From NCBI GenBank assembly GCA_018622495.1, contig CP076021.1, forward strand, positions 682,001 to 746,000: a stretch of DNA of 64,000 nt, given 5' to 3'. The DNA comes from Mycoplasmatota bacterium (GTDB lineage Bacteria; Bacillota_I; Bacilli_A; Acholeplasmatales; Acholeplasmataceae). A model generated the notes under the pieces. That model saw only the letters and a list, made by a program, of their open reading frames with translations. It ran no database searches and was not told where the DNA came from. The translations under genes and the position numbers were made by a program. Position 1 is the stretch's first letter, and every line of letters starts with the position of its first letter. Shown in pieces: positions 23,131 through 47,424 of the stretch.

Positions 23131-23164
23131 TAAAAGAAAACCTATTTATTTAAATAGGTTTTTT
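23131..23164. terminator. Terminator at the 3' end of the amidase gene
   Basis: AAAACCTATTT and AAATAGGTTTT form an 11-base stem with a 4-base loop. T runs on the minus strand follow the amidase gene, whose last codons lie within the stem. Confidence 0.7.
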
Positions 23165-24546
23165 AATGGGTCAAATGTTTGATTAATAATGCTTTCAAGT
23201 TGATATCCTAATTCAATAAGATGACTTTCTTTGAAATGAGGAGCAAGTAGATATATCCCTTTTGGCATACCATTTTGTTGATAACCAACGGGTAGCGTTA
23301 ATGTTGGATAACCACATGAGGGGCCTAAGTGGGTATAATTGATAAAATATATGACATCAATATTGTTTTGTTTAAATATATTGTCTACTTGTAATATCGT
23401 TTGTTTTCTTTCGTCTAAAGCATCAAGATAATCTTTTTCATTTTTTAGTCCAGAAGTTTCATTTTCCACTTCAACTAAGATGCCTTGACCGTACTTAAGA
23501 TTTTCTCTAGGGTGTTTATGATTATATGAAATGATATCTTTTAAGGTGATGTTCAGATTTTCTTGTGTTAAATATCGATTGATATCATGCTTAAACTCAT
23601 ATTTCATAATATGATTAATTGATTTAAAAGAAGGCACTTTAATATCAACTAAATCATAATTTAGAGTTTTTAATAAAGTACTTACTTTTTTAAATATAAG
23701 TTTATCATCTTTTGAAATTTTAAATGGACTATCGTGTACAAGTCCTATGCGTTTAACATGATTTGTGTGTAAGTATGTTGTGTAATCAGTCTCACCTTGT
23801 AGGTGGGACATGGTAATTGGATCACTTGGATCTTGAGATACCATACTTGATAATAAAACGGCTAAATCTGAAATATGATTTGCCATAGGTCCTGCAGTAT
23901 CTAAGGTTGATGAAATAGGAATAATACCAGTTCTTGGTATAAGTCCAATCGTAGGCTTTATTGCTTTAATACCATTTCTCATCGAAGGTGACATAATAGA
24001 ACCACCAGTTTACGTACCGATAGCTACAGGTGATAAACGCAATGCAGTAGCAACTGCACTACCAGTTGAACTTCCACTAGGATCTTCATGAATGTCATAA
24101 GGGAATAAAACTTGGCCACCTAAACTTGAAAAACCATTTGATCTTGTAAAAGTTTTGTAACAAGCTAATTCTGTTAAATTAGTTTTTCCTAAAATGATAG
24201 CACCTTGTTCTCTAAGTGTTTTGACAAGTGCTGCATCTTTTAAAGCAATATGATCTTTAAGTATGTTAGTGCCAGCAGTAGTTGTTTGTTGATCTTTTGT
24301 GTTAATGTTATCTTTAATTAAAACAGGGATGCCGTGCATAAAAGAGCGTACGTGACCATTTTCTCGTTCTTTATCTAAAGTTTCAGCGATTGATAAAGCA
24401 TCAGGATTAATCATATAAACTGCATGATAGTTATTATCGATTGTTCTAATACGTTCAATAAAATATGAAGTTATTTCAAATGATGAAATCTCTTGGTTTT
24501 GCATCATTGTTTGAAGTTTAAATATGGGTGTATTATATAGTGACAT
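23146..24546 (-). CDS. Amidase (amidase-signature family) with one internal stop
   Basis: A complete 466-codon amidase frame with a single TAA at 24012-24010 (codon 179) after an ACG codon. The stop falls in the family's most conserved stretch, GT-E-TGGSI, so the lost residue is Glu. The catalytic Lys is in HGIPVLIKDNI and the Ser cluster in DPSGSSTGSAVA. It is a stand-alone amidase of the GatA-like superfamily; gatB/gatC are absent here, and it lacks features that would make it GatA. It hydrolyses an unknown amide. It would be inactive if the stop is real and not read through. AGGAGG precedes the start. Confidence 0.88.
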
Positions 24547-24702: not shown

Positions 24703-24799
24703 GCCAAACAAAACTAATCAAGGAACCATAAAAGCGAGTATTTTACCCTGGTTTGTTTGGCGACTTTCCTTGATTGGGTGAAGTACTCGCTTTTGTGGT
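24703..24799 (+). ncRNA. Structured transposase leader with three ordered complementary segments
   Basis: Segment a (GCCAAACAAA, 24703), b (AATCAAGGAA, 24716) and c (ACCATAAAAGCGAGTA, 24725) are followed by their complements in the same order: a' TTTGTTTGGC (24752), b' TTCCTTGATT (24766) and c' TACTCGCTTTTGTGGT (24784). All three cannot nest, so the RNA must form a multiple pseudoknot or switch between alternatives. It ends four bases before the AGGGAG site of the transposase, so control of its translation is likely. Confidence 0.55.
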
Positions 24800-24812
24800 C
24801 TTAGGGAGTATT

Positions 24813-25751
24813 ATGCCAAAACACAAAATATGTACAAAATGTGGAACTGTGAATAGTTTAATCAAAAATGGGAGGGATATAAACAAGAAGCAAAGGTATA
24901 AATGTAAATCCTGTCTAAAGACATTCATTTTAGACGAATCAACAACCAGCCAACTACAAAACAGCGATTACACCTTCAGGAAATTTATTGGTTATATGAT
25001 TGACGATGTAACACTTGAAGTCATAGCTAGAAACATTGGGATTAATATAAAGACAGCGCTGTATTATCGATATTTGGTTTTCGAATCTTTACGCAACTAT
25101 CAAGATGAGATTATTCTTGATGGAACAGTACTGGTAGACGAGACATTCGTGAGGATAAATAATAAGAAATATAAACTAAGAAGAGCTGATGGTAAAGGGA
25201 TAAGAGGGATATCTTTTAATCACCTATGTGTAATTACTTTAATCAATCTGCAAGGTACCTGTATCGCTAAAGTATCTTCAAGAGGTATGGCAAAACCACA
25301 ACTGTTCATAGATTTATGTACAGAAAACATGGGAAAAATCGATTTATTAATTCACGATGGAAGTGGAACTCAAAAACAATTTTTAAGACAATTTAATGTA
25401 CCAAATATTGATGCACGTCGTGAAGGTGATGGAGTATATGATACGCTTTTAGTAGATTCATTACACAGTAACATTAAAAGATATCTATTTAAACATGCAG
25501 GTTATCGACTAAAGAACCTACAACACTATATGAATTTTTTTGTATATAGATATAATCATACACCAAAATCAAAAGTTAATAATCATCGGAAACTTATTCA
25601 AAGTAGAAATGATATGATGAATGATTTATTTAATAGAATTAAAAAGATAAACAAAAAGATCACTTATAGAAAGTTCCAAAGTGATCTAGGTATTACTGAT
25701 ATTCTTGAATCAGTCGATAAGAATTATTATTTCAATAAAGATATCAACTAA
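24813..25751 (+). CDS. IS1595-type transposase
   Basis: A 312-residue transposase from ATG 24813 (MPKHKICTKCGTVNSLIKNG), preferred over an upstream frame extension that lies within the leader RNA. The N-terminal zinc ribbon CTKCGTVN...CKSCLKTF is followed by an ISXO2-like catalytic domain with DETFVR, LIHDGSG and a late acidic residue. AGGGAG precedes the start. The gene is uninterrupted, unlike the other transposases in the window, so the element is probably active or recent. Confidence 0.92.
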   Translation: MPKHKICTKCGTVNSLIKNGRDINKKQRYKCKSCLKTFILDESTTSQLQNSDYTFRKFIGYMIDDVTLEVIARNIGINIKTALYYRYLVFESLRNYQDEIILDGTVLVDETFVRINNKKYKLRRADGKGIRGISFNHLCVITLINLQGTCIAKVSSRGMAKPQLFIDLCTENMGKIDLLIHDGSGTQKQFLRQFNVPNIDARREGDGVYDTLLVDSLHSNIKRYLFKHAGYRLKNLQHYMNFFVYRYNHTPKSKVNNHRKLIQSRNDMMNDLFNRIKKINKKITYRKFQSDLGITDILESVDKNYYFNKDIN

Positions 25752-25804: not shown

Positions 25805-27334
25805 TTATGAAATAATTAACGATTTTCCTGTCATTTCCTTAGGTTGCTTAACACCTAAAATATCAAGAAGTGTTGGTGCAACATCACATAATGCACCAGT
25901 GTTTACTTTAACATTAGGGTCTGTCACAATGACAGGCACTAAGTTTGTTGTATGTGCTGTATGAGGTTGTCCTGCTTCATTGACCATTTTTTCTGCGTTA
26001 CCATGATCTGCAATAATAATTGCGACACCACCAATTGATTCAATAGCTGCAACAACATCTTTTGTACATGTATCAACTGTTTCAACTGCAATTTTAGCTG
26101 CTTCGATAGAACCAGTATGACCCACCATATCAGGATTAGCAAAATTTAATATCATTGTATCAAATTTCCCTGATTTAATGGCTGCAACTGCTTTATCTCT
26201 AACTTCAAATGCACTCATTTCAGGTTGAAGATCATAAGTTGCAACTTTTGGTGATTGAACTAATATACGTTCAGCACCTTTAAATGATTTATCAATACCA
26301 CCATCAAAGAAGAATGTAACATGAGCATATTTTTCAGTTTCCGCAATTCTAAGTTGTGTTAATCCAGCATTTGCAATAACTTCACCATAAATGTTATCTA
26401 ATTTTTGTAATGGGAAAGCAATAGGTCCTTTGACAGTTGCATTATAATGCATCATTGAAACAAAGAATATATTTTTAACTGCTTTTGATGGATCAAATGA
26501 AGGTTTTCCTTCTGTGACATATGATTTTGGTCCTTCAACAGGATTAGAAAAAGCTGTAGCGATTCTAATCGCTCTATCTGGTCTAAAATTAGCAAATATA
26601 ATAGCATCATTATCTTTAATTAAACCTTTTTCATCAGCAACAAACGGCATAATAAATTCATCAGATACATTTTCATCATATGATGCTTGAATACCATCTA
26701 ATGGTGATGAGAAGTGATGACCAGAACCTAATGTCATGTTGTCATAAGCTAATTGTAGACGATCCCAGTTATTATCTCTATCCATTGCATAATAACGACC
26801 TGATACAGTAGCAACTCTTACGCCTTGATCTATTAAGTCTTTTAAGTAACCTTTTCCAGATGTTTGAGGTGTATCTCTACCATCCATAAATGCATGTAGC
26901 CATGGGTTTAACCCTTTTGATACTGCTAAATCGTTTAATGCTTTAATGTGTGTTGGATATGCATGAACACCACCGTCTGAGACTAAACCAAAGATGTGTA
27001 ATTGAGAGTTATTTTTCTTAACGTAATCTATGGCATCTAAGAAAGCTTGATTTTCAAATAAATCACCATCTTTAATAGATTTATTAATACGTGTAAGTGA
27101 TTGATAAACAACACGTCCTGCACCTAAATTTAAATGTCCAACTTCACTATTACCCATTTGGCCATCAGGAAGTCCCACATATTCCCCACTAGCTTGAAGT
27201 GTATTATTTGGATATTTTTTAAAAGCTTCATCAAGGAATGGTTTTTTAGCAAGTGACACAGAATTTGACTCACTTGCAGGTGCTAAACCATATCCATCCA
27301 TAATGATTAGCCCAGCAAATCTTTTTTTATTCAT
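25805..27334 (-). CDS. gpmI: 2,3-bisphosphoglycerate-independent phosphoglycerate mutase
   Basis: A complete 509-residue manganese-dependent mutase interconverting 3- and 2-phosphoglycerate in glycolysis. The phosphatase-like domain starts with LIIMDGYGL (metal Asp). The phosphorylated Ser is in GQMGNSEVGHLNLGAG (Ser63), with DGRDTPQTSG, FANFRPDRAIR and the C-terminal metal site IADHGNAEKM...HTAHTTN. It is monocistronic, with its own terminator. It contains an intact GCG-GAA pair in IAETEK, which shows that the NCG-Glu context is not always broken. Confidence 0.97.
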   Translation of the reverse strand: MNKKRFAGLIIMDGYGLAPASESNSVSLAKKPFLDEAFKKYPNNTLQASGEYVGLPDGQMGNSEVGHLNLGAGRVVYQSLTRINKSIKDGDLFENQAFLDAIDYVKKNNSQLHIFGLVSDGGVHAYPTHIKALNDLAVSKGLNPWLHAFMDGRDTPQTSGKGYLKDLIDQGVRVATVSGRYYAMDRDNNWDRLQLAYDNMTLGSGHHFSSPLDGIQASYDENVSDEFIMPFVADEKGLIKDNDAIIFANFRPDRAIRIATAFSNPVEGPKSYVTEGKPSFDPSKAVKNIFFVSMMHYNATVKGPIAFPLQKLDNIYGEVIANAGLTQLRIAETEKYAHVTFFFDGGIDKSFKGAERILVQSPKVATYDLQPEMSAFEVRDKAVAAIKSGKFDTMILNFANPDMVGHTGSIEAAKIAVETVDTCTKDVVAAIESIGGVAIIIADHGNAEKMVNEAGQPHTAHTTNLVPVIVTDPNVKVNTGALCDVAPTLLDILGVKQPKEMTGKSLIIS

Positions 27335-27466: not shown

Positions 27467-27488
27467 AACTGAAAATAAATATAAAATA

Positions 27489-27604
27489 AATACTTCGGGG
27501 CAACGTGAAAATCGTGACCGGCGGTGATAGTCCGCGAGCCAATATGGCAGGAACTTGTGCAATTCAAGTACCGACAGTATAGTCTGGATGGAAGAAGTGA
27601 AATG
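27489..27604 (+). ncRNA. FMN riboswitch (RFN element)
   Basis: The conserved RFN core is easy to read: CTTCGGGGCAA, then GTGACCGGCGGTGATAGTCC, GCGAGCC, GGCAGG, CAAGTACCGACAGTATAGTC, and TGGATGGAAGAAG closing the P1 stem. It binds flavin mononucleotide and should turn off the riboflavin transporter gene 75 bases downstream when FMN is plentiful. Confidence 0.96.
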
Positions 27605-27625
27605 TCTTTTTTTGACGTTCTTTTG

Positions 27626-27652
27626 TCGCCGATGTTATTTGGTGATTTTTTT
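27626..27652 (+). terminator. Likely expression-platform terminator of the FMN riboswitch
   Basis: TCGCC and GGTGA close a small stem followed by seven T, between the aptamer and the ribU start. The stem is short, so control could also act on translation. Confidence 0.5.
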
Positions 27653-27678: not shown

Positions 27679-28455
27679 ATGGAAAATTTGTTTCAATTTT
27701 TACAAGCAAATGATTTAATTGTTAGACTTGTACTAGCAGGTATTTTTATTCTAGGATTAGTGGCATTGGTTTATTATGCATATAAGATGGAAAATAAGAA
27801 AATGACAAATGCACAAAAGATCAAAAAAATGACATTGATTGCCATTTTATCTGCATTATCGGTTGGATTATACTTTTTCCCTAAGATAAGTATATCTGTA
27901 TTTCTTCCCTTTATGCCGGCATTTTTAGAACTTCATTTTTCTAATTTACCGATTTATGTAGGAGGATTCTTATTGGGGCCTATTTCTGGTTCGATCATTG
28001 TCGTGATTCGATTTATATCTAAATTACCAGCAAGTAGCACAATGGGTACAGGTGAACTATTAGATTTTATTATTGGATTATCAACTGTTTTAGTTTCTTC
28101 AATGATTTATGCAAAACATAAAACGAAACATTCAGCTAAAATTTCTTTATTATGGATTACGATTATATGGACTTTTGTTGCTGTATTAAGTAATTGGTTA
28201 TTTATTTTACCTTTATATATTGAACTATTTGGATTCAATGTGATATTTGGTATGTTATCAGTGATTCCAGGTATTACAACTTCAAATTACATGTTATTTT
28301 ACTTATTGATTGCCATTGTACCATTTAATATTATTTTATCAAGTATTGTCTCAACAATAACTTATTTTGTTTATAAACGTGTATCGCACATTTACCATGA
28401 TATTAGTTTTTCACATCATCCTAATGAATCTCAACAACACATTGAAAAGAAATAA
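27679..28455 (+). CDS. ribU: Riboflavin transporter, ECF S-component
   Basis: A 258-residue membrane protein. After an extra N-terminal helix and a charged stretch (about 1-50) it has the six-helix S-component fold with PKISISVFLPFMPAFLELHFSNLPIYVGGFLLGP split across helices 2-3; only this family carries the FLPxMPAFLxxxFxxLP pattern. The FMN riboswitch in front supports the riboflavin assignment. It needs the shared EcfA/EcfA'/EcfT energising module, which is not in this window. AAAAGGAG precedes the ATG. Confidence 0.93.
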   Translation: MENLFQFLQANDLIVRLVLAGIFILGLVALVYYAYKMENKKMTNAQKIKKMTLIAILSALSVGLYFFPKISISVFLPFMPAFLELHFSNLPIYVGGFLLGPISGSIIVVIRFISKLPASSTMGTGELLDFIIGLSTVLVSSMIYAKHKTKHSAKISLLWITIIWTFVAVLSNWLFILPLYIELFGFNVIFGMLSVIPGITTSNYMLFYLLIAIVPFNIILSSIVSTITYFVYKRVSHIYHDISFSHHPNESQQHIEKK

Positions 28456-28465
28456 TGTTTAGCGC

Positions 28466-28494
28466 TTTCATTTAGAGTTTATATTTTGTATAAT
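28466..28494 (+). promoter_or_regulatory. Promoter of the heliorhodopsin gene
   Basis: TTTCAT and TATAAT have a 17-base spacer. GGGAGG at 28509-28514 is the ribosome-binding site. The gene can thus be transcribed independently of ribU. Confidence 0.55.
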
Positions 28495-28519
28495 ATGTAT
28501 ATATATATGGGAGGAAATT

Positions 28520-29305
28520 ATGGAAAACGAACAAACAAAGAAATTAGTTAGATTTAATTTGATTATGGGAAGTCTTCACTTTATTCAAGGGTTAATTATG
28601 GTTTTTCTTGCAACATCAGTCATTCAGACTATTGCAGAATTTCAACCGGTCATTACTCAAAACTTTTTAAGTTTTAATACGACAACACAAAGTTTAGAAC
28701 TTGCATCAAAAGAATTGTTTACACTACCGTTTGGTATTTTAGTTGCTAGTTTCTTGTTTTTATCCGCTATTGCACATGGTATTATTGCAATCCCTAAAAA
28801 AACAAGAGAAATTTATGTAAGTGATTTACAAAAAGGCATCAATCGCTTTAGATGGTTTGAATATGCATTAAGTTCATCAGTGATGATCGTCTTAATTTCT
28901 ACATTATTTGGTATTTATGACATCGCATCATTATTGTTAATCTTTGGATTAAACTTTATTATGAATATTTTTGGTTTATATATGGAACTTATGAATCAAA
29001 ATAGCGATAAGATTAAATGGGGTTCATTTGTTTATGGATCAATTGCAGGTATTCTACCTTGGGTTGCTATATTACTTTATATGTTTGGTACTGGTAGCTT
29101 AGATATGATACCTTGGTTTGTATGGGCTATTGTCGGAACATACTTTGTTGCTTTTAATAGTTTCCCAGTGAATATGATTCTTCAATACAAAAAGGTTGGT
29201 AAATGGAAAGATTATCTATATGGTGAACGCGTATACATTATATTAAGTTTAGTAGCAAAAACTTTCTTAGCATGGCTTGTATTATTTGGAGCAATGCAAC
29301 CTTAA
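28520..29305 (+). CDS. Heliorhodopsin
   Basis: A 261-residue seven-helix protein. The last helix has the heliorhodopsin signature LYGERVYIILSLVAKTFLAW with the retinal-binding lysine at Lys247. Helix 3 carries RWFEYALSSS with the counterion Glu114. The FGLN and VNMILQYKKVGKW blocks also match the family. Heliorhodopsins have the N-terminus inside and act as light sensors or enzyme modulators rather than pumps. No retinal-synthesis gene (brp/blh, crtY) is in the window, so retinal would come from elsewhere. The neighbour is the FMN-controlled ribU; the gene has its own promoter and terminator. Confidence 0.95.
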   Translation: MENEQTKKLVRFNLIMGSLHFIQGLIMVFLATSVIQTIAEFQPVITQNFLSFNTTTQSLELASKELFTLPFGILVASFLFLSAIAHGIIAIPKKTREIYVSDLQKGINRFRWFEYALSSSVMIVLISTLFGIYDIASLLLIFGLNFIMNIFGLYMELMNQNSDKIKWGSFVYGSIAGILPWVAILLYMFGTGSLDMIPWFVWAIVGTYFVAFNSFPVNMILQYKKVGKWKDYLYGERVYIILSLVAKTFLAWLVLFGAMQP

Positions 29306-29339
29306 TATTGATGGGTTAATCATAATAAAAACAAATTCT

Positions 29340-29376
29340 AAAAGAACTTATATATTAATATAGGTTCTTTTTATTT
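29340..29376 (+). terminator. Terminator of the heliorhodopsin gene
   Basis: AAAGAACTTATAT and ATATAGGTTCTTT form a stem with one G-T pair, followed by a T run. Confidence 0.8.
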
Positions 29377-29460
29377 TGATTTTTAAACAACTTAACCATG
29401 ATAGTTAAATAAACAATCTATTTTTTGTGTTAAAGTAAACGTTTTTATTATTTGTTTTGC

Positions 29461-29491: not shown

Positions 29492-30835
<1,344 letters not shown>

Positions 30836-31925: not shown

Positions 31926-33068
31926 ATGAAAAAGAGACAAATTATACTTATATTAATAGGCATAATCTTTATATCGAACGCCTCATTAGTCTTTGGCTAT
32001 TGGGCGTCCGGTGTTTTAGGGAGCCAAGATATAGCTTCAGCTTATATAGAAATTGGTGATTGGAATACATCAGTTATTGAAGATGAAGAAGACCTTGTTG
32101 AGTTTTTATCGGGTGAAGGAGATCCAACTGGTGACTATGTTTTAACTGATGATATTGATTTAACTGACAATCCTGATAACGTATTTGAACCTATTGAAGA
32201 TTTTAGTGGTAATTTTGATGGTAATGGTAATACGATTACAGGTTTTGATATTATTGATGAAGAAACAGACTTTACGGGTATTTTTGTTACAAATACAGGA
32301 ACTATTTCTAATTTAGTGGTAGAAGATGTTAATATTAGTCAATATGATAATAATAATGCTAATAATCAAGATGAAGTAACCTATGTTGGTGTACTCATTG
32401 GTCAAAATGAAGGAACAGTTGAAAACGTTCAAGTGACCAGTTCTACAATTATTGCTGAAAATGATTCTTCTACAAGCTGGTTTAGTGATTCCTCTTTAGA
32501 TGTCTTTGCAGGTGGATTAGTAGGTTATAACGGTGTCAATGGTGTTATTAAAAATTCATATAGTCATGCAGATCTTTACATGGAAACTGATTTATATGCA
32601 GGATTTATTTCAACGACAACATCTAATACTTATGCAGGTGGATTAGTTGGTTATAATGAAGGAGAAATATCACAGAGTTACAATACTGGTATTGTATCAA
32701 GTGTAGTTAATGATACCTCAAGCAGTTGGGGTTCAAGTAATGCTAATAATTATGCTGGAGGAATTGTTGGATACAATACTTCAACAGGTAATGTCCATGA
32801 TGTGTTTGCAACCGGAAATATTACAATAGATAGTGATCATAGTGACTATGTAGGTTATGTTGTTGGTTATAATTTAGGTACTGTTAGTAATTTATTTAGA
32901 TTAAACACACAAACATATTCACCATCAAGTGCTACATTATTTAATAGTACAACAGCAACAACAATTTCAAATTTACAATCATCAACCTATTTGACTAATA
33001 ATCTCGGATTTGATTTTATTAATATATGGCAAGAAGTCACAAATGACTATCCAGTCATCCAAAACTAA
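31926..33068 (+). CDS. Secreted GLUG-repeat surface protein
   Basis: A 380-residue exported protein. The N-terminus (KKRQIILILIGIIF, then SNASLVFGYWASGVLGS) resembles SipW-type signal peptides. An acidic region and repeated GLUG-like units follow: GVLIGQNEGTVENV, AGGLVGYNGVNGVIKNSY, AGGLVGYNEGEISQSY and AGGIVGYNTSTGNVHDVF. Such repeats form beta-solenoid stalks in adhesins. There is no clear C-terminal anchor. It is monocistronic and ends at a strong terminator. It is probably extracellular; the partner is unknown. Confidence 0.8.
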   Translation: MKKRQIILILIGIIFISNASLVFGYWASGVLGSQDIASAYIEIGDWNTSVIEDEEDLVEFLSGEGDPTGDYVLTDDIDLTDNPDNVFEPIEDFSGNFDGNGNTITGFDIIDEETDFTGIFVTNTGTISNLVVEDVNISQYDNNNANNQDEVTYVGVLIGQNEGTVENVQVTSSTIIAENDSSTSWFSDSSLDVFAGGLVGYNGVNGVIKNSYSHADLYMETDLYAGFISTTTSNTYAGGLVGYNEGEISQSYNTGIVSSVVNDTSSSWGSSNANNYAGGIVGYNTSTGNVHDVFATGNITIDSDHSDYVGYVVGYNLGTVSNLFRLNTQTYSPSSATLFNSTTATTISNLQSSTYLTNNLGFDFINIWQEVTNDYPVIQN

Positions 33069-47202: not shown

Positions 47203-47230
47203 TTTCATGGTAATATTAAAACGCTATGAT
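47203..47230 (+). promoter_or_regulatory. Promoter of the alaS leader
   Basis: TTTCAT and TATGAT with a 16-base spacer stand about 25 bases before the T-box stem I. Confidence 0.4.
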
Positions 47231-47254
47231 AAGAATAAGTAATATATTTTTTAT

Positions 47255-47424
47255 TTAAGAGACTTCGTGGTTGGTGAAAACGAAGATAAAAAATTTATGA
47301 AAGCTACTCTTGGAGCAAAAAGTAAGTCGGCTTTAACGACATTTGAGGGCTAGGAAACATTCTAGAACTAAGGTGGTACCGCGATATTATTCGTCCTTAG
47401 ATATTTTCTAAGGGCGTTTTTTAT
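47255..47424 (+). ncRNA. T-box leader, alanine-specific
   Basis: The conserved T-box AAGGTGGTACCGCG is at 47370-47383. Stem I begins around 47258 (AGACTTCGTGGTTGG). A GCT triplet at 47303-47305, following GAAA, is a fitting Ala specifier for the alaS gene downstream. The terminator CGTCCTTAG/CTAAGGGCG with T6 is at 47391-47422; the T-box can pair to form the antiterminator. Uncharged tRNA-Ala should increase alaS transcription. Confidence 0.93.

Follow-up and report, generated by a model that had tools for sequence, protein, structure and literature searches.

The heliorhodopsin (HeR) of Trichococcus flocculiformis, TfHeR, binds a class II photolyase, whose repair activity is thereby increased about threefold and extended to green light (PMC9769723). 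Functional rhodopsins have been found in a bacterium that lacks known retinal genes (PMC7734400), and there is a precedent for retinal possibly being obtained from neighbouring organisms (PMC9296517). Peloplasma aerotolerans M4Ah is a member of the Acholeplasmataceae that has no cell wall (PMC11122141). Much about the function of HeRs has yet to be settled. A simple system for this is provided by wall-less bacteria that have one membrane and genomes of 1-2 Mb and of which several, such as Peloplasma aerotolerans, grow in pure culture: they combine HeR and a class II photolyase with the lack of any known retinal enzyme.

In this study, we analysed a stretch of 64,000 nucleotides (the window) from an Acholeplasmataceae genome that consists of a single contig of 1,598,325 bases. 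We show that the window encodes an intact, genuine heliorhodopsin, a predicted light sensor, and that its gene interrupts a conserved housekeeping block, as a result of either insertion or relocation. By analogy with TfHeR we propose, with about even confidence, that the protein binds retinal and, when lit, would act as photosensory partner of the class II photolyase in DNA repair and photoprotection. The kind of protein is already known; its owner, a wall-less lineage, is a setting for which we found no earlier report. A literature search of incomplete coverage retrieved no paper in which heliorhodopsin and Acholeplasma are both named, and within the same scope the HeR papers checked for the terms Tenericutes and Mollicutes contained neither.

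The heliorhodopsin and its wall-less owner

The first-pass annotation, made from the window alone, had called the gene a heliorhodopsin with Lys247 as retinal lysine and Glu114 as counterion. Profile and structure matches bear out this identity. The PF18761 Heliorhodopsin profile is covered end to end (317 bits, E 8.2e-95; cut-off 26.7), the NCBIfam HeR equivalog NF038020 is matched with 292.7 bits (cut-off 100), and the six distinct PDB sequences matching the protein are heliorhodopsins without exception, the best being 6is6 (TaHeR, E 2.3e-57). In the alignment, the counterion glutamate and the Schiff-base lysine of TaHeR correspond to Glu114 and Lys247, so that both residues had been assigned correctly. 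The retinal lysine is kept in 97/97 other HeR sequences aligned, and Glu114, Lys247, Ser243, His20 and His86 are invariant among the 14 Acholeplasmatales HeRs aligned. Lysine and arginine residues number 16 on the N-terminal side versus 1 on the opposite side (helix limits were set by hand from the alignment); this positive-inside count fits a predicted inverted topology with a cytoplasmic N terminus.

Light-driven transport of protons has been reported for one viral heliorhodopsin (PMC9448325), and the window HeR might likewise be a proton transporter or channel. However, the known transporter is viral and prokaryotic HeRs are described in the literature as regulators or sensors. The window protein itself carries the HeR pattern, with Glu114 in TM3 and SxxxK (Ser243, Lys247) in TM7. 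We consider a transport function hardly credible; the protein probably acts without ion pumping.

The owner had been described as wall-less and Acholeplasma-like. The PBP transpeptidase domain PF00905 is absent from the window genome and from every genome of the same family searched, the same search detecting it in 10 of 14 control genomes and in four further members of the order. One of the relatives in the family (G016) shares a contig with Peloplasma aerotolerans M4Ah, with HeR identical across the last 230 residues compared. Given the missing PF00905 and a wall-less relative in the same family, the description is well supported.

No retinal synthesis gene had been seen in the window, and for BCD and RPE65 this holds genome-wide. 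Neither BCD/Blh nor, with positive controls, an RPE65-type cleavage enzyme or a squalene/phytoene synthase (SQS_PSY, the carotenoid synthase) was found in the window genome. The sensitivity of the BCD search is illustrated by matches in 11 of 199 genomes taken from G089's phylum (E 1e-46 to 1e-74). Since not one of 51 HeR genomes, with Peloplasma entering twice, reached the BCD cut-off, known retinal synthesis is missing across the sampled HeR genomes and its lack here is no odd local loss. Retinal would probably be scavenged from the surroundings, or made via an unknown route, and then be bound by HeR. The absence of retinal genes makes the origin of retinal directly testable in culture.

The missing BCD, RPE65 and SQS_PSY would also suit a relic, that is, an opsin left empty for want of retinal and encoded by a gene on its way out. 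Broken HeR copies, with stop codons or a frameshift, are indeed present in three genomes of the order (L012/L031 in G050, L018/L037 in G027, L019/L038 in G034), so HeR is repeatedly being lost in the order while photolyase is retained. Against a relic, the reading frame in the window is complete and all key residues are present. HeR genomes generally do without retinal enzymes, yet dN/dS of HeR is 0.02-0.06 in close pairs of the order (the window species is without a close pair), which indicates strong purifying selection and thus a gene kept for function in the order. Together with the precedent of rhodopsins that work although their bacterial owner has no known gene for retinal (PMC7734400), this makes a relic improbable.

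Insertion site between ribU and eno

HeR follows ribU, which is preceded by an FMN riboswitch (Table 1), as the first-pass annotation had stated; the two genes lie on the same strand, 64 bp apart. The annotation had gone on to suggest a link between light sensing and flavin supply. HeR would then be the second gene of an FMN-riboswitch ribU-HeR unit, in which low flavin raises both uptake and light sensing. That photolyase uses FAD agrees with such a unit, as do the short gap and the signals around the gene. No terminator was found between ribU and HeR, the only terminator-like site of the scan lying upstream of ribU, and 28440-28519 contains no stable fold. The promoter that HeR had been said to own stands as a TATAAT box but lacks a -35 match, and the promoter scan listed no site between ribU and HeR; it is weak at best. 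Behind HeR, the fold of 29306-29400 is strong (z-score -5.8). Because the 64 bp hold no terminator, the HeR promoter is weak and a hairpin follows HeR, read-through from ribU is possible, and so is co-transcription of both genes in the window genome.

Comparison of gene order does not support the flavin link. The ribU-HeR arrangement occurs in the window genome only; gpmI-FMN riboswitch-ribU-eno is kept with HeR not inside it in five relatives (G001, G011, G013, G034, G040). ribU adjoins HeR at none of about 100 other HeR loci (the 80 closest public loci and those of other Acholeplasmatales), and a close ribU homologue is absent from most HeR-bearing relatives. As the block is conserved without HeR and ribU stands beside no other HeR, their adjacency is an effect of the insertion site: ribU is a local neighbour of HeR and no conserved partner. 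A flavin-controlled unit is thus improbable in our judgement, and the FMN riboswitch would be incidental to HeR, at most contributing read-through expression. The slot between ribU and eno is empty in G011 and G034; in G001, G013 and G040 it is occupied by a short ORF (L180:4573-5055, L182:7503-7982, L183:6918-7373) with a membrane-like product of about 150-160 aa. The L180 ORF, the single one of the three tested, has no Pfam or NCBIfam match.

Table 1. Coordinates of features in the window
Feature	Position	Strand	Remarks
gpmI (phosphoglycerate mutase), left end of conserved block	25805..27334	-	order gpmI-ribU-eno in five relatives
FMN riboswitch aptamer upstream of ribU	27487..27603	+	RF00050, 102.1 bits
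Terminator-like hairpin, riboswitch expression platform	27625..27646	+	z-score -4.7
ribU, ECF transporter substrate-binding component (ECF_trnsprt)	27679..28455	+	PF12822, E 1.4e-21
TATAAT, possible HeR -10 box	28489..28494	+	read directly; no good -35
HeR ribosome-binding site GGAGG	28510-28514	+	
Heliorhodopsin (HeR) gene	28520..29305	+	261 aa, complete, ATG start; PF18761, NF038020, PDB 6is6
Glu114 codon GAA, counterion position in RWFEYALSSS	28859..28861	+	aligned to TaHeR
Lys247 codon AAA, retinal Schiff-base lysine in SLVAKTF	29258..29260	+	aligned to TaHeR
A+T-rich 14-bp hairpin then U-rich tail, probable HeR transcript end	29340..29371	+	
eno (enolase), right end of conserved block	29540..30835	+	order gpmI-ribU-eno in five relatives
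T-box leader	47217-47401	+	119 bits

As to the origin of the gene, its product shares 67-77% identity with the 80 closest HeRs in public genomes, which include those of Halolactibacillus, Trichococcus, Proteiniclasticum, Anaerolineaceae and other Acholeplasmataceae. The window HeR falls outside the photolyase-linked Acholeplasmataceae group in 3/3 HeR trees. Two of the three pair it with the HeR of a Bacilli MAG, L084 (support 97/96 and 98/94), which is directly followed by photolyase and has the short ICL2 'NSDK' in common with the window HeR. AU tests do not reject placement of the window HeR inside the Acholeplasmataceae (p 0.15-0.22), which leaves lateral acquisition unproven. Base composition gives no clear sign of foreign origin, with a G+C of 0.304 versus a mean of 0.296 for the ORFs of the window, and a GC3 of 0.222 versus 0.171 (SD 0.036), about 1.4 SD high. 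Lateral gain and relocation would each explain the position of HeR.

Elsewhere in the window, an amidase gene is split into two adjacent frames, 23146-24546 (-) and 24774-25751 (+), both matching PF01425; it lies beside an IS1595-like transposase and is probably a pseudogene. The product of the ORF at 31926-33068 (+) has two GLUG motifs (PF07581) and may be a protein of the surface of the wall-less cell.

Recurrent neighbours of HeR in the order

HeR is present in 19 of the 61 genomes of the order searched (window genome included; three copies are broken). A photolyase (PF00875) occurs in 19/19 genomes with HeR versus 5/42 without (Fisher p 1e-11, kinship ignored). With the same disregard of kinship, the figures are 15/19 versus 2/42 for PF14249 (Fisher p 6e-9) and 10/19 versus 5/42 for SQS_PSY (Fisher p 1e-3). 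In the genera g1, g8, g10 and g11, HeR and photolyase are either co-present or co-absent, some of the absences being in incomplete genomes. The ribU-HeR arrangement is not conserved in the order; photolyase, PF14249 and carotenoid genes of the CrtN/CrtM type recur beside HeR instead. Photolyase is the commonest near neighbour: in 13 Acholeplasmatales a class II photolyase gene is either immediately divergent from HeR (7 genomes) or a few genes off (6 genomes). G009 and G032 have a second photolyase and a DPRP gene near HeR as well. The small genomes G022 and G032 also carry a second, divergent HeR (L039:2376-3158, L040:6119-6901), followed by two proteins of about 340 and 264 aa with no family match above cut-off.

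In ten Acholeplasmataceae genomes HeR is followed, after 43-71 bp, by a tocopherol-cyclase-like gene (PF14249; L021:10044-11015, L028:7890-8855, L035:9580-10548 and others). Where HeR sits elsewhere, PF14249 also adjoins CrtN/CrtM or photolyase, and it is likewise present in genomes without a carotenoid synthase. HeR may be part of a light-protection module of the Acholeplasmataceae, together with class II photolyase, the tocopherol-cyclase-like protein and, in part of the genomes, carotenoid genes, in wall-less cells without a known retinal route; we put this forward as a tentative and rather doubtful reading. If true, this would make the tocopherol-cyclase-like protein a novel type of partner for heliorhodopsin. 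In a literature search of incomplete coverage, no publication naming heliorhodopsin together with tocopherol was found.

The window genome has a class II photolyase gene (L152:9195-10565; phr2, E 2e-136), which groups within the Acholeplasmataceae photolyases (quick tree, 93% SH-aLRT), and also a second gene of photolyase/cryptochrome type. PF14249 is absent from this genome. For HeR, we propose that the lit protein would serve as a photosensory regulator via its positively charged cytoplasmic face. It would probably bind and tune the class II CPD photolyase of the cell, as TfHeR does, and light-driven DNA repair together with photoprotection would most likely be the downstream process. This proposal builds on identity, key residues, charge topology, the absence of known retinal enzymes, the photolyase association and the insertion site, all of which are computed. 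Against it stand the replacement of R162 of TfHeR and the lack of linkage, since HeR and photolyase do not form one operon in the window genome and are about 242 kb apart. HeR would owe its place between ribU and eno, apart from the photolyase gene, to insertion or relocation.

Alternatively, HeR might regulate another protein or be a general light sensor (in signalling, transport or nitrogen metabolism), the photolyase link reflecting shared light exposure. Glutamine synthetase (PMC9529153) and an ABC transporter (PMC11109279) are published HeR partners. Among the 80 closest HeR loci of wider genome collections, photolyase was present at 20 within the stretch fetched (<=6 kb on each side), most of these loci being without it. 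However, photolyase is found in every HeR genome of the order and is the most frequent gene near HeR, and we regard another partner as rather unlikely. The co-occurrence of HeR and photolyase, for which kinship was ignored, may be a mere marker of lit habitats; taken at face value, it supports within this order the role of photolyase helper that was proposed from Trichococcus.

Comparison with described systems

Three described systems can be set beside the window HeR. TaHeR, from a Thermoplasmatales archaeon (PDB 6is6), aligns over its full length, with counterion and retinal lysine in register; unlike the bacterial HeRs discussed here it is of archaeal source, and it is far more distant from the window HeR. 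The cluster of Peloplasma aerotolerans M4Ah and other Acholeplasmataceae comes from the same wall-less family, with an HeR about 70% identical to that of the window and a class II photolyase in common. There, however, HeR lies between photolyase and the PF14249 gene, whereas the window HeR lies between ribU and eno.

TfHeR/TfPHR of Trichococcus flocculiformis is the system from which the proposed function is taken. TfHeR is about 71% identical to the window HeR, its residues E97 and K227 are conserved, and a class II photolyase is present in both genomes. In contrast, HeR and photolyase share one operon in Trichococcus, and R162, needed for binding in TfHeR, is replaced by S in the shortened loop of the window HeR. 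As a marker of photolyase binding R162 was rejected, being not diagnostic: it varies among photolyase-linked HeRs too.
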